Positions 18,676-24,788 of a DNA stretch of 45,701 nt are shown here, piece after piece (within the stretch, counting starts at the first letter, position 1; each line of letters begins with the position of its first letter). Where the stretch lies: positions 1 through 45,701 of the forward strand of contig JAJEAH010000060.1 of the NCBI GenBank assembly GCA_022824225.1, read 5' to 3'. A program made the translations under genes and the position numbers. Under the pieces are notes generated by a model. That model was not told where the DNA came from, searched no databases, and saw only the letters and a program-made list of their open reading frames with translations. This DNA comes from Chloroflexota bacterium (lineage in GTDB: Bacteria; Chloroflexota; UBA11872; VXOZ01).

Positions 18676-19740
18676 TCAATCCAATTGCCAGAGGCGGGGA
18701 TCCAGCCCCAGGCCGCGGGCGTCCGCGCAGATGTGTTCCCAGGTCGTCTCGTCGATGGGGATGCCCGACTGGGCGCGTTCGCGCTCGGCGCGGTACTCCG
18801 GCTCGCCCGCAATCAGAATCTCTTGGACGCCCTCCGCCGTGCGGCTTGACTTGACGTGGCTGATGAGGGCTTCCATCTCGTCGTAGAAGAAGTCCGGCTC
18901 TACGAACTGGGCGATGTCGTAGGCGATGAGGAGCACGCCGTTGCTGTCCACGCGCATGTCGCCGGCGGACATGCCCTGGCCGCTCATGCCGCCGCCGCAC
19001 ACCTCGATCATCATGCTGAGCGCCGTGCCCTTGTGCCCCAGCGGCCCGCCGAGGGGCAAGATGGCGCCGTGGGGTTCATCCACGTAGTCTTCCGGTCGTG
19101 TGCTCGGTTTGCCTGCGGCATCCAGCAGCCAGCCCTCCGGCAGCGGTTTGCCCGCGTTGGCGGCGACGCGGATCTTACCGTCGGCCACGGTTGAGGTGGT
19201 CATGTCCACGAAGAAGGGCGGCGCGTCCCGCCGGGGCGCGGCAAAGGCCAGCGGATTGGTGCCCAGGCGTCCGTCTATGCCGCCAAACGGCGCCACCTGA
19301 AAGCCCAGCCTGCCGGCGTTGACGTAGATGTGGCCGATCATGCCGGCCTGCGCCACCAGCAGGGGATAGGCCCCCACCCGCCCGATGTGGCTCGTGTTGC
19401 GCAGCGAGACGGCGGCGATGCCGTTGGCGCGCGCTTTGTCGATCAGAAGTTCCGTGGCAAAGGTCGCGCCGACTTGCCCAAAGCCGTTGTGCGCGTCCAC
19501 CACGGCGGTACAGGCGTGTTCACGCGCGATTTCGGGTATGGCCTGCGGGTCCACGACGCGTTTTTCGCGCACGGACTCCGCATATTGGCGCATGCGCACC
19601 ATGCCGTGGGAATCATGGCCGTACAGGTTGGACTGCACCAGATGGTCGGTGACCGTGCGTGCGTCTGCCGCGCTGCACCCCAGGGCGCTGAAGAACGCGT
19701 TGCCAAGGCGGCGCAGTACGGCGGCGGATACGGTAGGCAC
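18676..19740 (-). CDS. Ldh2/malate-L-lactate dehydrogenase family oxidoreductase, paralog 1
   Basis: A 354-residue NAD(P)-dependent 2-hydroxyacid (or delta-1-piperideine-2-carboxylate-type) oxidoreductase of the Ldh_2 family, which has its own non-Rossmann fold. Conserved elements include YGHDSHGMVRM (His 42, His 45), a substrate/cofactor block TSHIGRVGAY, and FGGIDGRLGTNPLAFAAPR. A GTG start at 19740 is preceded by AAAGGAGCCGCTC. It is the last of three tandem paralogs on the minus strand, with a 211-bp gap to the next. It is the most divergent of the three by eye (for example VEPDFFYDEMEALISHVKSS). The substrate cannot be told from sequence. Confidence 0.9.
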   Translation of the reverse strand: MPTVSAAVLRRLGNAFFSALGCSAADARTVTDHLVQSNLYGHDSHGMVRMRQYAESVREKRVVDPQAIPEIAREHACTAVVDAHNGFGQVGATFATELLIDKARANGIAAVSLRNTSHIGRVGAYPLLVAQAGMIGHIYVNAGRLGFQVAPFGGIDGRLGTNPLAFAAPRRDAPPFFVDMTTSTVADGKIRVAANAGKPLPEGWLLDAAGKPSTRPEDYVDEPHGAILPLGGPLGHKGTALSMMIEVCGGGMSGQGMSAGDMRVDSNGVLLIAYDIAQFVEPDFFYDEMEALISHVKSSRTAEGVQEILIAGEPEYRAERERAQSGIPIDETTWEHICADARGLGLDPRLWQLD

Positions 19741-19951
19741 GAGCGGCTCCTTTCAGCGCCGGGCTTCTATTGTATTGCGCAACGATTCGAGGCGTGTTCG
19801 AGCTTGTGCGTGCCGCTGTTGCCCTCACCGAACGGCGCGGCGGTCCGGTCTTAGCGCACCGGCGCGGCGGCGCGCCCGCAGCGAGGCCGGGGCGCAGCCG
19901 GAGCGGGCTTTTCCATGGTATCCCGGGGCATCCCGGCCTACCGGCGTCCAA

Positions 19952-21013
19952 TCACGCTAGTTCCCAGGCGGTTGGGTCGAGCCCGATGTCACGGGCCGAC
20001 GCGCAGAGCTTTTGCCAGGTGGTGTCGTCGATGGGAATGCCCGTTTGCGCGCGCTCGCGTTCCCTGCGAAATTCCGGCTCGCCGGGCACCAGGATTTCCG
20101 TTACGCCGGGCGCCGTGCGGCTCGACTTGACGTGGTTGACCAGGGCTTCCACCTCGTCGTAGTAGAAGTCCATGTCCGTAAAGAACTCGATATTATAGAC
20201 CGTGAAGAGCACGCCGTTGGCCGGCGCGCGCCGATCGCCGGAAGACATGCCCTGGCCGCTCAGGCCGCCGGCGCAGATTTCCATGAACATGCTCAGCGCG
20301 TAGCCCTTGTGACCCAGCGGCCCGCCCAGAGGGAGAATGGCGCCGCGCGGCTCTTCCCAATACGCCACAGGGTCTGTGCTGGGATTGCCCTGCGCGTCGA
20401 TGACCCAACCTTCCGGCAGCGGCTTGCCGAGATTGGTAGCCACCCGGATCTTGCCGTCGGCCACCGTGCAGGTCGTCATGTCCACCATGATGGGCGGATC
20501 GGCGCGGCGGGGCGCGCCAAAGGCCAGGGGATTCGTGCCCAGGCGGCCGTCGATGCCGCCGAAGGGCGTGACCTGAAAGCCCATGCGGCCCGAGTTTACG
20601 TAGACGACGCCGATCATGTTCGCCGCGGCGATAGTGACGGGATACGCTCCGGCGCGGCCGATGTGGCTGGCCCGGCGCAGCGCAACGCTGCCAATGCCGT
20701 GTTCCCGCGCCTTCTGTATGGCCAGGTCCGTGGCCAGCGCCGCGCCCACCTGCCCAAAGCCGCCGTGGGCGTCCACCACCGCCGTGCAGGCGCGGTCGCT
20801 CACCACCTCCGGCGCGCCCTGGGGATCGACGCGGCCTTCGCTCACGGCGCGGGCGTACTCATACATGCGCAGGAGGCCATGGGACTCATGGCCGTACAGG
20901 TTGGATTGCACCAGGTGGTCGGTGACGATCCGGGCGTCATCCGGGCGGCAGCCCAGCGCCGTGAAGAATTCTTGGCCGATGCGGCGCATGGCCGCGGCGG
21001 TGAGGGTGGGCAC
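19952..21013 (-). CDS. Ldh2/malate-L-lactate dehydrogenase family oxidoreductase, paralog 2
   Basis: A 353-residue Ldh_2-family oxidoreductase with YGHESHGLLRMYEYAR, ASHIGRAGAY and FGGIDGRLGTNPLAFGAPR. The GTG start at 21013 is preceded by AAAGGAGCCGTTC, nearly identical to the block before paralog 1, so the duplication included the ribosome-binding region. It shares the MYEYARAV.EGRVDPQG run with paralog 3, suggesting these two are the closest pair. Each gene has its own 150-210 bp spacer, so separate promoters are possible; the paralogs may serve different hydroxy acids. Confidence 0.9.
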   Translation of the reverse strand: MPTLTAAAMRRIGQEFFTALGCRPDDARIVTDHLVQSNLYGHESHGLLRMYEYARAVSEGRVDPQGAPEVVSDRACTAVVDAHGGFGQVGAALATDLAIQKAREHGIGSVALRRASHIGRAGAYPVTIAAANMIGVVYVNSGRMGFQVTPFGGIDGRLGTNPLAFGAPRRADPPIMVDMTTCTVADGKIRVATNLGKPLPEGWVIDAQGNPSTDPVAYWEEPRGAILPLGGPLGHKGYALSMFMEICAGGLSGQGMSSGDRRAPANGVLFTVYNIEFFTDMDFYYDEVEALVNHVKSSRTAPGVTEILVPGEPEFRRERERAQTGIPIDDTTWQKLCASARDIGLDPTAWELA

Positions 21014-21163
21014 GAACGGCTCCTTTCGGCTTGTGCTCTACGATACGGATTCGCTGAACGCGCGGGCCGTGCCATGGCGACCCCCGGCTTGCGCGCCGCG
21101 ATCGGGCGAATGCGCCCAATGCCGGGCCGCGGCGCGGGTGCGGCGCGTTGCATTCGCCGAGCG

Positions 21164-22225
21164 CTAGGCGTGCTGCCAGGCGCTGGGGTCCAGGCCCATC
21201 CCGCGGGCGGATTCGCAGATTCTCTCCCAGGTGGTGTCGTCGACGGGTATGCCCGTTTGCGCGCGCTCGCGTTCCGTGCGAAACTCCGGCTCGCCGGGCA
21301 GGAGCACCTCGTCCACGCCGGGTTCGGTGCGGCTCGACTTGACGTGGGCGACCAGGGCTTCCACCTCGTCGTAGTAGGATTCCAGGTCCGTGAAGTGGGC
21401 GATGTCGTAGACCGAAAACAGAACGCCGTTGCCGGGATAGCTCAAGTCGCCGGAAGACATGCCTTGACCGCTCAGCCCGCCGGCGCAGAGTTCCATCATC
21501 AAGCTCAGCGCGTAGCCCTTGTGGCCCAGCGGGCCGCCGAGCGGCAGGATAGCCCCGCGCGGCTCGTCCCAGTAGACGTGGGGGTCCGTGCTGGGATTGC
21601 CCGCGCCGTCGATGATCCAGCCGGCCGGCACCGGCGTGCCGCGATTGGTCGCCACGCTGATCTTGCCTTCGGCCACCGTGCAGGTGGTCATGTCCACCAC
21701 GATCGGCGGCGCGTCCCGGCGGGGCGCGGCGAACGCCAGCGGATTCGTGCCCAAGCGCCCGTCGATGCCGCCGAATGGCGCGACCTGAAAGCCCTTGCGG
21801 CCGGTGTTGACGTACATTATGCCGATCATGCCGGCCTGGGCTGCCATGGTGGGGAATTCCCCCGCGCGGCCAACGTGGCTGGTGTTGCGCAGCGTTACAC
21901 TGGCTATGCCATAGGTGCGGGCTTTGTCGATGGCAAATCTGGCGGCATAGGCGGCGGCAACCTGCCCGAAGCCGTCTTGCGCTTCCAGCACCGCGGTGCA
22001 GGCGTGCTCGCGCACGACGCGGGGCGTGCCTTGGGGATCGACGCGGCCTTCCCGTACGGCGCGGGCGTATTCGTACATGCGCAGTATGCCGTGGGAATCG
22101 TGGCCGTAGAGATTCGACTGCACCAGGTGGTCGGCCACGATCCGGGCGTCTTCGGGCCGGCAGCCCAGCGCGGTGAAGAAGTCTTGGCCGATGCGGCGCA
22201 GGGCGTCTGGGGTGAATGTGGGCAC
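21164..22225 (-). CDS. Ldh2/malate-L-lactate dehydrogenase family oxidoreductase, paralog 3
   Basis: A 353-residue Ldh_2-family oxidoreductase with YGHDSHGILRMYEYAR, TSHVGRAGEF and FGGIDGRLGTNPLAFAAPR. The usual Tyr after GRAGxY is Phe here, a possible specificity change. The GTG start at 22225 follows AAAGGAACCGCCT. It is the first in transcription order of the tandem triplet and lies 96 bp downstream of the small unknown gene at 22322-22615. Confidence 0.9.
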   Translation of the reverse strand: MPTFTPDALRRIGQDFFTALGCRPEDARIVADHLVQSNLYGHDSHGILRMYEYARAVREGRVDPQGTPRVVREHACTAVLEAQDGFGQVAAAYAARFAIDKARTYGIASVTLRNTSHVGRAGEFPTMAAQAGMIGIMYVNTGRKGFQVAPFGGIDGRLGTNPLAFAAPRRDAPPIVVDMTTCTVAEGKISVATNRGTPVPAGWIIDGAGNPSTDPHVYWDEPRGAILPLGGPLGHKGYALSLMMELCAGGLSGQGMSSGDLSYPGNGVLFSVYDIAHFTDLESYYDEVEALVAHVKSSRTEPGVDEVLLPGEPEFRTERERAQTGIPVDDTTWERICESARGMGLDPSAWQHA

Positions 22226-22321: not shown

Positions 22322-22615
22322 TCAGCCGGCGGGGTAGCCCGCGACCGTTGCCACCAGCGCATCCACCGCGGCTTCTTCCATGAGCAACTGCGGGCCATGG
22401 GGGAAGTCGGGGTGCTTGGCCACGCGGCCCCGGCGTTCCAGCGCGCACTCCCAGCCGTCGTCATTGTGCTCGGCGCGCGTGATCTGCAGAACGTAGCCGT
22501 TGGCGAAGGGCACGGTGTAGCGCTCGTTGATGCGGAGACACCAGTCGTTGGGCAACTCCTTGCGGAAGGCGCGCCACGATAGCTCGGGTTGCCAGATTTT
22601 CTGTTGTACTGCCAT
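22322..22615 (-). CDS. Small conserved-looking protein of unknown function
   Basis: A 97-residue protein that I do not recognise. It is rich in Trp and charged residues, with no membrane segment or signal peptide. The pattern RINERYTVPFANGYVLQITRAEHNDDGWECALERRG suggests a compact beta-rich fold. A good AAGGGAG lies 8 nt before the ATG at 22615, and codon use matches the flanking genes, which supports a real gene. It is on the same strand as and upstream of the three Ldh2 genes, so it could be the first gene of their transcript. Confidence 0.65.
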   Translation of the reverse strand: MAVQQKIWQPELSWRAFRKELPNDWCLRINERYTVPFANGYVLQITRAEHNDDGWECALERRGRVAKHPDFPHGPQLLMEEAAVDALVATVAGYPAG

Positions 22616-22755: not shown

Positions 22756-24195
22756 ATGTTCGATATCGGTCTGCCGGAACTAATGGTAATCCTGCTGCTC
22801 GGCCTTGTCCTGCTGGGGCCGGACCGGTTGCCGGGGGTGATTCGCCAAGTCACCGGGGTAATCCGACAGCTCCGGTCGAGCTATGGCGATGCGCTCGCGG
22901 TTTTCAAAGACCAGCTTGGCGACGTTCAGGAAGACATCGACGCCATTCGCGGCGAGATTTCATCCATCCAGGGCGAAGTGCGCTCCACGGCTGAAGACGT
23001 GGAAAAGGACGTAAAGAAGGTCCAAGGCGAAGTAAAGACCGCTGGCGCGGAAATCCAGCAGGGCCTCGATGAGACGGCAAAGGAAGCGGCGGAGGTTGCC
23101 GGGACCCGGCCGGACCAGGCCGGCGCGGAAGCCAATGCGCCGCCGGCGGTTGCGGCGATCGCGGCAGCGCGACGCCCCGCTCCGAGCGAACGAGGGCCAG
23201 CCTGGACGCCCCAGGGGGCGCAGGGCGGCGGTGGATCACCGCTGCAGCAAGACCTGTTTGCCGGTCTGATGCGCAGCCTCAAAGCCCGGCTGGGTGAGGA
23301 CTGGCTGGTGGAGCAGGCGGACATCTACCGGGATATGGGCGCCCGCGCCGCCCAACGCGCCGCCGGCGCCAAGGAGGACACTGCGGAGTTGGCGCGCACC
23401 TGGGCGGACATGCACCGCAATACGTTGCCCGAAGGCAGCCTGCAAATCATCGAAACCGGACGTGACTATCGCGTGCGCATGCGCCAGTGTCCGTTCGGCT
23501 TTGCGGATAGCGACGACGCGGCGCTGTGCCAGTCGTGCGGCGCCTACGATCTGGCGTACCTGGCGGAGCGCGCTGCCGAGGTGAAGTGGGAATCTCACCT
23601 GACGGCGGGCGATCCGTGGTGCGAGCTCGTGTTTGCCAAGCCGCCTCTGCCGCCGCAGCCGGAGGTTGAAAGCCCGGCGGCGGACACCGCCGCGGCGGTG
23701 AACGGCGACACCGCGCCGGGCGCTGCGCCGGACGCCGTTGACGCCGCGTCAAAGTCCGCTGACGCAGCGTCAGATTCCGCTGACGACAAAGCGGACACGG
23801 CCCCGGAGACGGCGCCTGCGAGCCCGGCTGGGGACGCCAAGGCAGGATCGGAATTCGCCGCGCTGGCGCAGGCGTACGGCAGCGCCGCTGAGCCGGAAGA
23901 TGCGGCGGAAGATACGGCGGGGGACGACGGCGGGGCGGCTGCGGAACGCCCGGCGGGCGCCGCGAGCGAGTCCGAACCCCAGGCGCCCGATGCCGAAACG
24001 GCGCAGACCAAAGTGGCTGCCCCGCCTGATGGGCCGGAAGGGACCGCCGGCGCGGCCCGCGCTGAGGACAAGCCGGACAAGACGGTGGCGGAAGCCGCCG
24101 GTGAGAAGACCGCGACCGCGCGAAATGCGACGCCTGCGCAGGATGCGAAGACCGCGCGGAATGCGAAGACCGCGCAGAAAGCGAAGACCCCATGA
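22756..24195 (+). CDS. TatA/TatB-like protein fused to a Cys-containing domain and an Ala/Glu-rich tail
   Basis: A 479-residue protein with a clear TatA/B-type N-terminus: a short periplasmic start, a membrane helix (ELMVILLLGLVLLGPDRLP) with the Gly-Pro hinge, and an amphipathic helix to about residue 55. A long coiled-coil segment follows (56-115, DAIRGEISSIQGEV). Residues about 165-293 form a globular domain with Cys 245, 258, 261 and 289 in RMRQCPFGFAD, CQSCGAYD and GDPWCELVF, resembling the fold of ATC-hydrolase/V4R-like domains. The tail from about 300 is low-complexity Ala/Glu/Asp-rich and ends in ARNAKTAQKAKTP repeats. Normal TatA has 60-100 residues. The stop overlaps the next gene's ATG (ATGA). 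Whether it works in Tat export is unproven. Confidence 0.75.
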   Translation: MFDIGLPELMVILLLGLVLLGPDRLPGVIRQVTGVIRQLRSSYGDALAVFKDQLGDVQEDIDAIRGEISSIQGEVRSTAEDVEKDVKKVQGEVKTAGAEIQQGLDETAKEAAEVAGTRPDQAGAEANAPPAVAAIAAARRPAPSERGPAWTPQGAQGGGGSPLQQDLFAGLMRSLKARLGEDWLVEQADIYRDMGARAAQRAAGAKEDTAELARTWADMHRNTLPEGSLQIIETGRDYRVRMRQCPFGFADSDDAALCQSCGAYDLAYLAERAAEVKWESHLTAGDPWCELVFAKPPLPPQPEVESPAADTAAAVNGDTAPGAAPDAVDAASKSADAASDSADDKADTAPETAPASPAGDAKAGSEFAALAQAYGSAAEPEDAAEDTAGDDGGAAAERPAGAASESEPQAPDAETAQTKVAAPPDGPEGTAGAARAEDKPDKTVAEAAGEKTATARNATPAQDAKTARNAKTAQKAKTP

Positions 24196-24788
24196 AGGTG
24201 GCCGCCTTCGTCCGGGGCCCGCTGCTAAACAACGTCTACGTGCTGTGGGACGAGTCTACCAAGCACGCGGCCATCATCGATCCCGGCATCGCCAGCGACG
24301 ATCTGCTGGGAGTGATCCAGGCCGAGCGGCTCAACCTGCGCTACATCCTCAATACCCACCACCACTTCGATCACGTCGATAACGACTCGTTCTTTCGCGA
24401 GCAGACGGGCGCGCCCATCGTGGTGCATCAGGATGACGCCGCGCTGCTAGAGGAACGGGCGGGCGTTGCGGCGGACGTGCTCTTGCGCGATGGCGAGGAA
24501 CTCGCCCTGGGCGCGTTGACGATCCGCACCCTCCATACGCCCGGCCACTCCGCCGGCGGGGTGTGCTTCCTGGTGGAGGACCACCTCTTCGCCGGTGACA
24601 CCCTCTTTGCCGGATCGGTCGGCAGAAGCGACTTCGAGGATAGCGACGGCGAATTGCTGCTCAAGGTCATTGCCGAGAAGATTCTGCCGCTACCCGCTGC
24701 CACCCGCGTGCTGCCCGGCCACGGCGACGAGACAACCGTCGGCGCGGAGCGGGCGAATAATCCCTTCTTGCAGGGGCTTGTGGGGTAG
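24192..24788 (+). CDS. MBL-fold hydrolase, GloB/hydroxyacylglutathione-hydrolase-like
   Basis: A 198-residue metallo-beta-lactamase-fold hydrolase. The motif HHHFDH is at 56-61, followed by HTPGHSAGG, FAGDTLF and LPGHGDETT, which supply the remaining metal ligands of the glyoxalase-II-like group. It lacks the extra C-terminal glutathione-binding domain of true GloB, so the substrate may be another thioester. It overlaps the TatA-fusion gene by 4 bases, indicating translational coupling. No signal peptide; probably cytoplasmic. Confidence 0.9.
   Translation: MKVAAFVRGPLLNNVYVLWDESTKHAAIIDPGIASDDLLGVIQAERLNLRYILNTHHHFDHVDNDSFFREQTGAPIVVHQDDAALLEERAGVAADVLLRDGEELALGALTIRTLHTPGHSAGGVCFLVEDHLFAGDTLFAGSVGRSDFEDSDGELLLKVIAEKILPLPAATRVLPGHGDETTVGAERANNPFLQGLVG

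Follow-up and report, generated by a model that had tools for sequence, protein, structure and literature searches.

How the Tat system judges the folding and the cofactor loading of its cargo is named as an open question in PMC9436932. The window analysed here, a stretch of 45,701 nucleotides from a Chloroflexota bacterium (contig JAJEAH010000060.1), contains a gene that raises a related question. An intact open reading frame of 479 residues on the forward strand (22756–24195) begins with a Tat-type membrane anchor and continues with a globular domain containing four cysteines and a long acidic tail. Is this protein a part of the Tat translocase, and what could the added domain be for? The preliminary description, made from the sequence, had proposed a tether or sensor that borrows the TatA fold rather than a translocase part. 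The features it had read from the frame, namely the 479 residues, the cysteines 245, 258, 261 and 289 and the ATGA overlap with the next gene, were all found again in the window. The coordinates are collected in Table 1.

Table 1. Positions in the window of the tatB gene, the parts of its product and the following gene.
Feature	Positions	Strand	Description	Basis
tatB gene	22756..24195	+	479 aa plus stop; TatB-type protein with C-terminal Cys domain and acidic, Ala-rich tail	ORF, TIGR01410 score, orthologues
Residues 1–22	22756..22821	+	short transmembrane helix, polar E8 and G21-P22 hinge	alignment with E. coli TatB 2mi2
Residues 23–115 (limits approximate)	22822..23100	+	amphipathic helix, then a long charged region outside the membrane, predicted as coiled/helical	TatB profile and PDB matches
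Residues 161–301	23236..23658	+	globular domain, predicted TRAPPC3/V4R-type fold, HHH-bb-H-bb	AlphaFold2 model, VIA
Cys245 codon	23488..23490	+	conserved Cys 1, just past strand 2	kept in 26/28 complete domains
Cys258 codon	23527..23529	+	conserved Cys 2, within helix 4	kept in 26/28 complete domains
Cys261 codon	23536..23538	+	fourth Cys, own genus only	6/6 f1 rows, 0/22 other complete rows
Cys289 codon	23620..23622	+	conserved Cys 3, start of strand 4	kept in 26/28 complete domains
Residues 302–479	23659..24192	+	acidic, Ala/Pro-rich low-complexity tail	translation, alignment
GloB-like gene	24192..24788	+	hydrolase of metallo-beta-lactamase fold; 4-bp ATGA overlap with tatB	PF00753, E=2.6e-25

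The anchor belongs to the TatB type. With the NCBIfam tatB profile (TIGR01410), the window protein scored 54.7 bits in hmmscan, just below the cut-off of 56.5, and 57.0 bits in a six-frame search of the genome, which is above it. Its relatives in family f2 scored 64.9–69.5 bits in the six-frame search, all above the cut-off. The tatAE profile (TIGR01411) gave 18.5 bits and did not reach its cut-off of 53.9, and identity as TatA was rejected on this score. The best PDB match of residues 1–110 was E. coli TatB (2mi2, E=1.1e-9), and the TatB chains of 9dzz and 9e02 were also matched. The profile match extends to residue 73 and the matches to 9dzz and 9e02 to residues 80–95. In the PDB alignment, E8, G21-P22 and L25-P26 are in register with E. 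coli TatB. The transmembrane helix with E8, the G-P hinge and the R-L-P motif, all of them TatB features, are found both there and among the invariant columns of alignment A5, and E8 together with L20-G21-P22 is present in 29/29 rows of the relatives' alignment. Models of the E. coli complex place E8 of TatB in contact with T208 and Q215 of TatC, and this residue is reported to be required for TatB-TatC binding (PMC5201420). When the single TatC of the genome was aligned to E. coli TatC (9dzz), T208 and Q215 were retained and M205 was replaced by Ala. The membrane anchor of the preliminary description, left there as TatA/B-like, is therefore of TatB and not of TatA type (54.7 versus 18.5 bits).

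The Tat components of the genomes were then counted. The window's own genome contains exactly two PF02416 matches, a TatA of 97 residues on contig C41 and the window protein on contig C27, and one TatC on contig C43, so that a normal tatA and tatC do exist elsewhere in the genome. The three genes lie on separate contigs, and no operon joins them. The wider set consisted of 41 genomes of the class in families f1–f5, with the rows of f1 representing the window's genus. PF02416 was found in all 41 of these genomes and TatC in 40, the exception being a genome of 69% completeness. In families f1–f3, exactly two PF02416 matches, one short and one long, were found in 28 of the 30 genomes; the other two have a single match and are 69% and 76% complete. 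With one short TatA, one TatC and no other TatB candidate in the genome, the window protein is, judged from sequence, the TatB of this lineage rather than a spare anchor. The proposal of a tether or sensor outside the translocase does not agree with this TatB-type sequence, the single TatB candidate per genome and the retained T208 and Q215 of TatC.

The unusual architecture is not an artefact of one assembly. The protein is present in 6/6 genomes of its order (its own and five others, all of one genus), and the five congeners share 67–71% identity with it over nearly the full length. Four named Chloroflexota records are also nearly full-length matches, at 64–70% identity. The anchor and the Cys domain occur together in 30/30 genomes of f1–f3, and each of these 30 genomes gave one match at TatB to the domain profile A2. 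A frameshift or an assembly join between two genes, which had been named as a possible refutation, was tested and excluded by the same architecture in the 6/6 and 30/30 genomes. Two profiles of the domain were used, A1 built from 19 and A2 from 15 of the 29 rows, with the two Cys-less rows described below omitted from A2. One row (L013), truncated by a contig end, was excluded from A1, A2 and the Cys count. The acidic tail, which makes up the last 180 residues of the window protein, varies in length between congeners.

Outside f1–f3, A2 found no match at TatB in any of the 11 genomes of f4 and f5. Across 34 genomes of the phylum, strong A2 matches were obtained in four known carriers only. Two further matches, each with E=0.007, were discarded: one in G015 lies in a frame that looks non-coding, and the frame of the other, in G180, appears to be antisense. 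Regions with long TatB frames in other parts of the phylum were also inspected. TatB was recovered in 9 of 14 such regions, with lengths of 139–277 residues, low-complexity tails and no Cys domain by eye; A2 found nothing in the genomes of the remaining five. The TatBs read from f4 (L043, L044) and f5 (L045–L051) carry a different, short C-terminal module. The one f4 TatB scanned matched UPF0175 with 32.2 bits, above the cut-off of 27.9, and three of the four f5 TatBs scanned gave a weak UPF0175 match, the fourth none. Because f4 and f5 end in this UPF0175-type module, the tails of TatB, as read from these sequences, differ between families of the class.

Residues 161–301 are predicted to fold on their own. 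AlphaFold2, given the A1 alignment (19 rows, window sequence first), modelled them with a pLDDT of 90.0 and a pTM of 0.81 as H-H-H-b-b-H-b-b, in line with the earlier suggestion of an independent domain after residue 160. Among the matches listed by Foldseek against the PDB were BcsD (7e-4), MopR (1.5e-3) and Bet3 (1.7e-3). The best of the VIA matches listed was Bet3 (1wc9, Z 10.1, rmsd 4.2, 134 residues aligned); the list also contained Asgard TRAPPC3 (7yh3, Z 8.2), MopR (5kbi, Z 7.7), the H-NOX protein 2kii (Z 6.0) and the V4R protein MJ1460 (Z 5.9). VIA Z values of 7–8 are common by chance, and the case for the fold is that the matches listed belong mostly to one superfamily. The model thus confidently predicts an independent domain of the TRAPPC3/V4R/H-NOX fold. 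The V4R fold (PF02830) is recognised through MopR in both searches and through MJ1460 in VIA.

Profile searches were less informative about the family. The window's own domain had no Pfam match and only chance-level NCBIfam matches, and the domain profile matched no PDB sequence at E<=10. When the 19 members were scanned at a lax threshold (E<=10), nine Pfam families appeared, and V4R (PF02830) was absent from them. MetOD1 was weakly matched by 6/19 members (best 0.0011) and ATC_hydrolase by 4/19 (best E=0.0028); for the latter (PF14196), one relative scored 15.5 bits with a gathering score of 28.1. PMC5847659 describes MetOD1 as akin to H-NOX, V4R and ATC hydrolase and as sharing three cysteines with the last two. 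Of the V4R/ATC-hydrolase resemblance noticed in the preliminary description, the relation to the V4R fold therefore holds, and the ATC-hydrolase part comes down to weak profile matches of relatives. The ligands of the fold relatives are diverse, including Zn, phenols, palmitate and heme, and binding of a small molecule by the added domain is possible.

Three of the four cysteines are characteristic of the domain as a whole. Spaced by 13 and 31 positions, they are kept in 26 of the 28 complete domains, and they are also present in G023, which lies outside these 28. The extra Cys261, three residues past the second, gives the pattern C-X12-C-X2-C-X27-C in 6/6 members of the window's genus. The four-Cys domain first described is thus real, with three cysteines conserved and the fourth a property of the genus. 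Two f3 domains (G025 and G029; loci L015 and L017) lack all three cysteines and keep the domain. In the tree these two rows form one clade with long branches, so a single loss of the triplet is possible, and long-branch attraction may instead explain the clade. The joint loss of the three cysteines suggests that they share a ligand. Since these two members have the domain but not the cysteines, a putative cluster would not be universally needed in the lineage.

A lead to the relatives of the domain came from the genome searches. Over the 41 class genomes, the best match of A2 outside TatB was a protein of G032 (E=0.001), which had first appeared in the phylum search, before any SufR was sought. 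It belongs to the winged-helix regulators of SufR type (SufR_cyano family, TIGR02702, E=7.6e-20, below the curated cut-off). SufR-type proteins were taken from the phylum with TIGR02702, none of them above the curated cut-off, and the sensor domains of 23 of the 25 loci formed alignment A3. These sensors read CPYYQIGVSHPEVC...GGSHC, where one of the TatB domains, for instance, has CPYGLKSGDAHPVC...DGAAHC. In most of A3 the cysteines are spaced by 13 and 28, compared with 13 and 31 in the TatB domain, and they lie in like elements. The winged helix that precedes the sensor in SufR is replaced in TatB by the anchor and linker.

The two sets were compared by profile alignment. With hhalign, A2 and A3 were aligned with a probability of 55.8% and a score of 31.6, with the cysteines in register, and A3 and A1 with a probability of 62.9%; overall, the probability for the TatB domain and the SufR sensor was only 45–63%, with E about 1e-4. 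Against the 31.6 of the real alignment, the best of 200 column shuffles scored 22.5, and when the Cys columns were kept fixed the best of 150 shuffles reached 20.9. As controls, reversed A3 scored 13.4 and the GloB profile 10.7. When the cysteines were masked, the path was unchanged and the score fell to 15.1, inside the range of the shuffles; the sequence case consequently rests on the cysteines and their context. In an hmmsearch over 2151 ORFs, SufRs ranked high with weak E-values (best 0.068 for A2 and 6.3e-4 for A1), and most of those ranked came from one family. MetOD1 and ATC_hydrolase are weak Pfam matches common to both sets. The model of a SufR sensor (pLDDT 90.5) has an element order identical to that of the TatB domain and the same PDB neighbours among the matches listed. 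Its first Cys lies just past strand 2, and its second and third stand where helix 4 and strand 4 begin. The TatB model places the first and third Cys as in SufR, but the second within helix 4.

In SufR Rv1460, which binds an Fe-S cluster, C203, C216 and C244 are required (PMC6034842). ArnR, which responds to NO and has a sensor resembling TRAPPC3, carries a [4Fe-4S] cluster whose likely ligands are C179, C193 and C223 (PMC12343034). In the V4R-type redox regulator MsvR, by comparison, the cysteines are 206, 232 and 240, with spacings of 26 and 8 (PMC3729527). By this measure of the sequences, the Cys spacing of the TatB domain fits the iron-sulfur type of SufR and ArnR better than the V4R type. 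The domain most resembles the SufR/ArnR branch of the superfamily, and kinship with that branch is probable but not proven.

The gene neighbourhood was examined for partners. In 6/6 congeners, tatB is followed by the GloB-like gene, and the two overlap by ATGA each time; the product encoded in the window scored 97 bits with the gloB profile of NCBIfam, below the cut-off of 200.8. In the other families, none of the loci read has a GloB homologue next to tatB. The translational coupling noted earlier therefore stands for the genus, and the role of an obligate partner was rejected, the adjacency being confined to it. In f3, tatB lies 30–91 bp downstream of a gene for a truncated Lon-type AAA+ protease of about 520–575 residues with a Lon_C domain, in 4/4 genera read (L054, L055, L057, L058). 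No Lon-type gene was found beside tatB in the f1, f2 and f5 loci with named immediate neighbours. The upstream gene is recA in both f5 loci scanned and of the isocitrate/isopropylmalate dehydrogenase type in one f2 locus, the f2 genes being called by codon composition. Since the neighbours differ between families, the tatB neighbourhood does not appear to be conserved, and only the gene order of f3 offers a hint that TatB and proteolysis are linked. Just upstream of tatB, the window also contains three tandem Ldh_2 (malate/L-lactate dehydrogenase) genes on the reverse strand (18676–22225); in the relatives L003 and L005 there are four of them. Divergent from tatB is an ORF of 97 residues (22322–22615, reverse strand) without a Pfam match, which is 87–91% identical in the other genomes of the genus whose contig covers the locus.

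Taken together, the best overall reading is that the protein is TatB, the receptor subunit of the Tat system, with an appended SufR/ArnR-like three-Cys cofactor-sensor domain of the TRAPPC3/V4R fold; we put its probability at roughly one half. The parts of this reading differ in strength. A TatB joined to a TRAPPC3/V4R fold is highly probable. That the cysteines hold a cluster or a metal is rather probable, and a regulatory or quality-control role in Tat export comes close to being probable without quite reaching it. As a tentative and more specific version, TatB itself may be an iron-sulfur sensor, in which the redox or NO state of a [4Fe-4S] cluster would gate the export of folded cofactor proteins and the translocase subunit would replace the DNA-binding half of a SufR/ArnR-like regulator.

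Such a mechanism could work as follows. The membrane helix of TatB would bind TatC, and its extrinsic helices would sample the folded cargo. A flexible linker would join the sensor-type domain to TatB in this lineage, and the domain would face the cytoplasm, as is known for TatB. The three cysteines and a fourth ligand, Cys261 in the window's genus, may hold a [4Fe-4S] cluster or, less likely, Zn2+, which would tie the sheet to helix 4. Loss, oxidation or nitrosylation of the cluster could then alter the conformation or dimerisation of the domain, and this may tune whether TatBC accepts or rejects folded substrates that bear cofactors.

Other explanations fit part of the same evidence. The domain could be a structural, Zn2+-binding and dimer-forming ligand pocket of the V4R/TRAPPC3 kind, which oligomerises TatB or binds a small molecule without redox sensing. 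The nearest solved folds among the matches listed, which include Bet3/TRAPPC3 and the phenol sensors MopR and PoxR, would suit this idea, as would the Asgard TRAPPC3 described in PMC10933270, which dimerises via its first two helices and, like PoxR, binds Zn via four cysteines, with the sheet tied to the last helix. Four cysteines are also present in the window's genus. However, there are only three outside the genus, and their spacing is unlike that of MsvR (26 and 8) and fits SufR (13, 28) and ArnR (14, 30). We consider this account possible but doubtful. The domain could also be a cofactor-proofreading or holdase module that contacts Tat substrates with Fe-S or other cofactors, withholds their export until they are mature and passes failures to proteolysis. 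Folding quality control is reported for the extrinsic helices of E. coli TatB (PMC9436932), and tatB lies directly downstream of the Lon-type gene in all four f3 genera read. The lack of such a gene beside tatB in the f1, f2 and f5 loci with named immediate neighbours, together with the coordinated loss of the cysteines, which is more suggestive of a bound cofactor than of a surface for clients, makes this explanation unlikely.

Least probable by far is an enzyme like ATC hydrolase that is tethered to the membrane by a borrowed Tat anchor and processes a small thiol compound together with the GloB-like hydrolase. The weak ATC_hydrolase matches in 4/19 members, the resemblance of the genus pattern C-X12-C-X2-C-X27-C to the ATC-family proteins L095 and L096 and the overlap with the GloB-like gene in 6/6 congeners would be in its favour. 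But the match scores below the Pfam gathering threshold, the loci read in other families that share the domain lack GloB, and the protein is the sole TatB of the genomes, with its TatC-contact residue kept.

If the reading as a TatB with a sensor domain is correct, a domain that is attached to a natural TatB and fixed across 30 genomes may give the cell a means of coupling export to its redox or cofactor state. Such a TatB with a three-Cys sensor-type domain would be a ready system for probing redox-dependent export and cargo rejection. If a cofactor is bound, it would be, to our knowledge, the first known Tat component with its own cofactor site. No report of a fusion between TatB and a sensor domain was found in the titles and abstracts of the open-access literature searched. 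The parts, TatB and the SufR/ArnR-like sensor fold, are known already, and their combination is new as far as this literature goes.

Compared with known systems, the protein shares with TatB (TIGR01410; E. coli 2mi2, 9dzz) the anchor, E8, the G21-P22 hinge, L25-P26 and the amphipathic and helical extrinsic parts, and in both cases each genome has a single TatB in addition to TatA and TatC. TatB usually exceeds TatA in length, and that of E. coli has 171 residues (PMC9436932), whereas the window TatB has 479, with the added globular Cys domain and the long acidic tail. With V4R, MetOD1, ATC_hydrolase and H-NOX (PF02830, PF18546, PF14196, PF07700), the predicted domain has the fold of V4R and H-NOX in common, but no significant family match, and the Cys spacing of V4R type is absent. 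For MetOD1, a three-Cys cluster is noted in PMC5847659, and class relatives of the window domain match it weakly. TRAPPC3/Bet3 is the best VIA match among those listed but has only 13% identity to the window domain; it is a eukaryotic vesicle tether, and the likeness implies no functional link. ArnR, a NO sensor of Corynebacterium, has its cysteines 14 and 30 apart, compared with 13 and 31 here, and is TRAPPC3-like (PMC12343034); the two are likened by Cys spacing and described fold, and ArnR is a soluble DNA-binding regulator, unlike the window TatB. The sensor of SufR (TIGR02702) shares the predicted order HHH-bb-H-bb, three cysteines in the same elements, the motif CP(Y/F)...C...G..C and the distance of 13 between the first two cysteines. 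The distance from the second to the third is 28 in SufR and 31 in the TatB domain, which in the window's genus also has the fourth Cys. In SufR the sensor follows an N-terminal, DNA-binding winged helix, whereas the window domain sits on a membrane translocase subunit.
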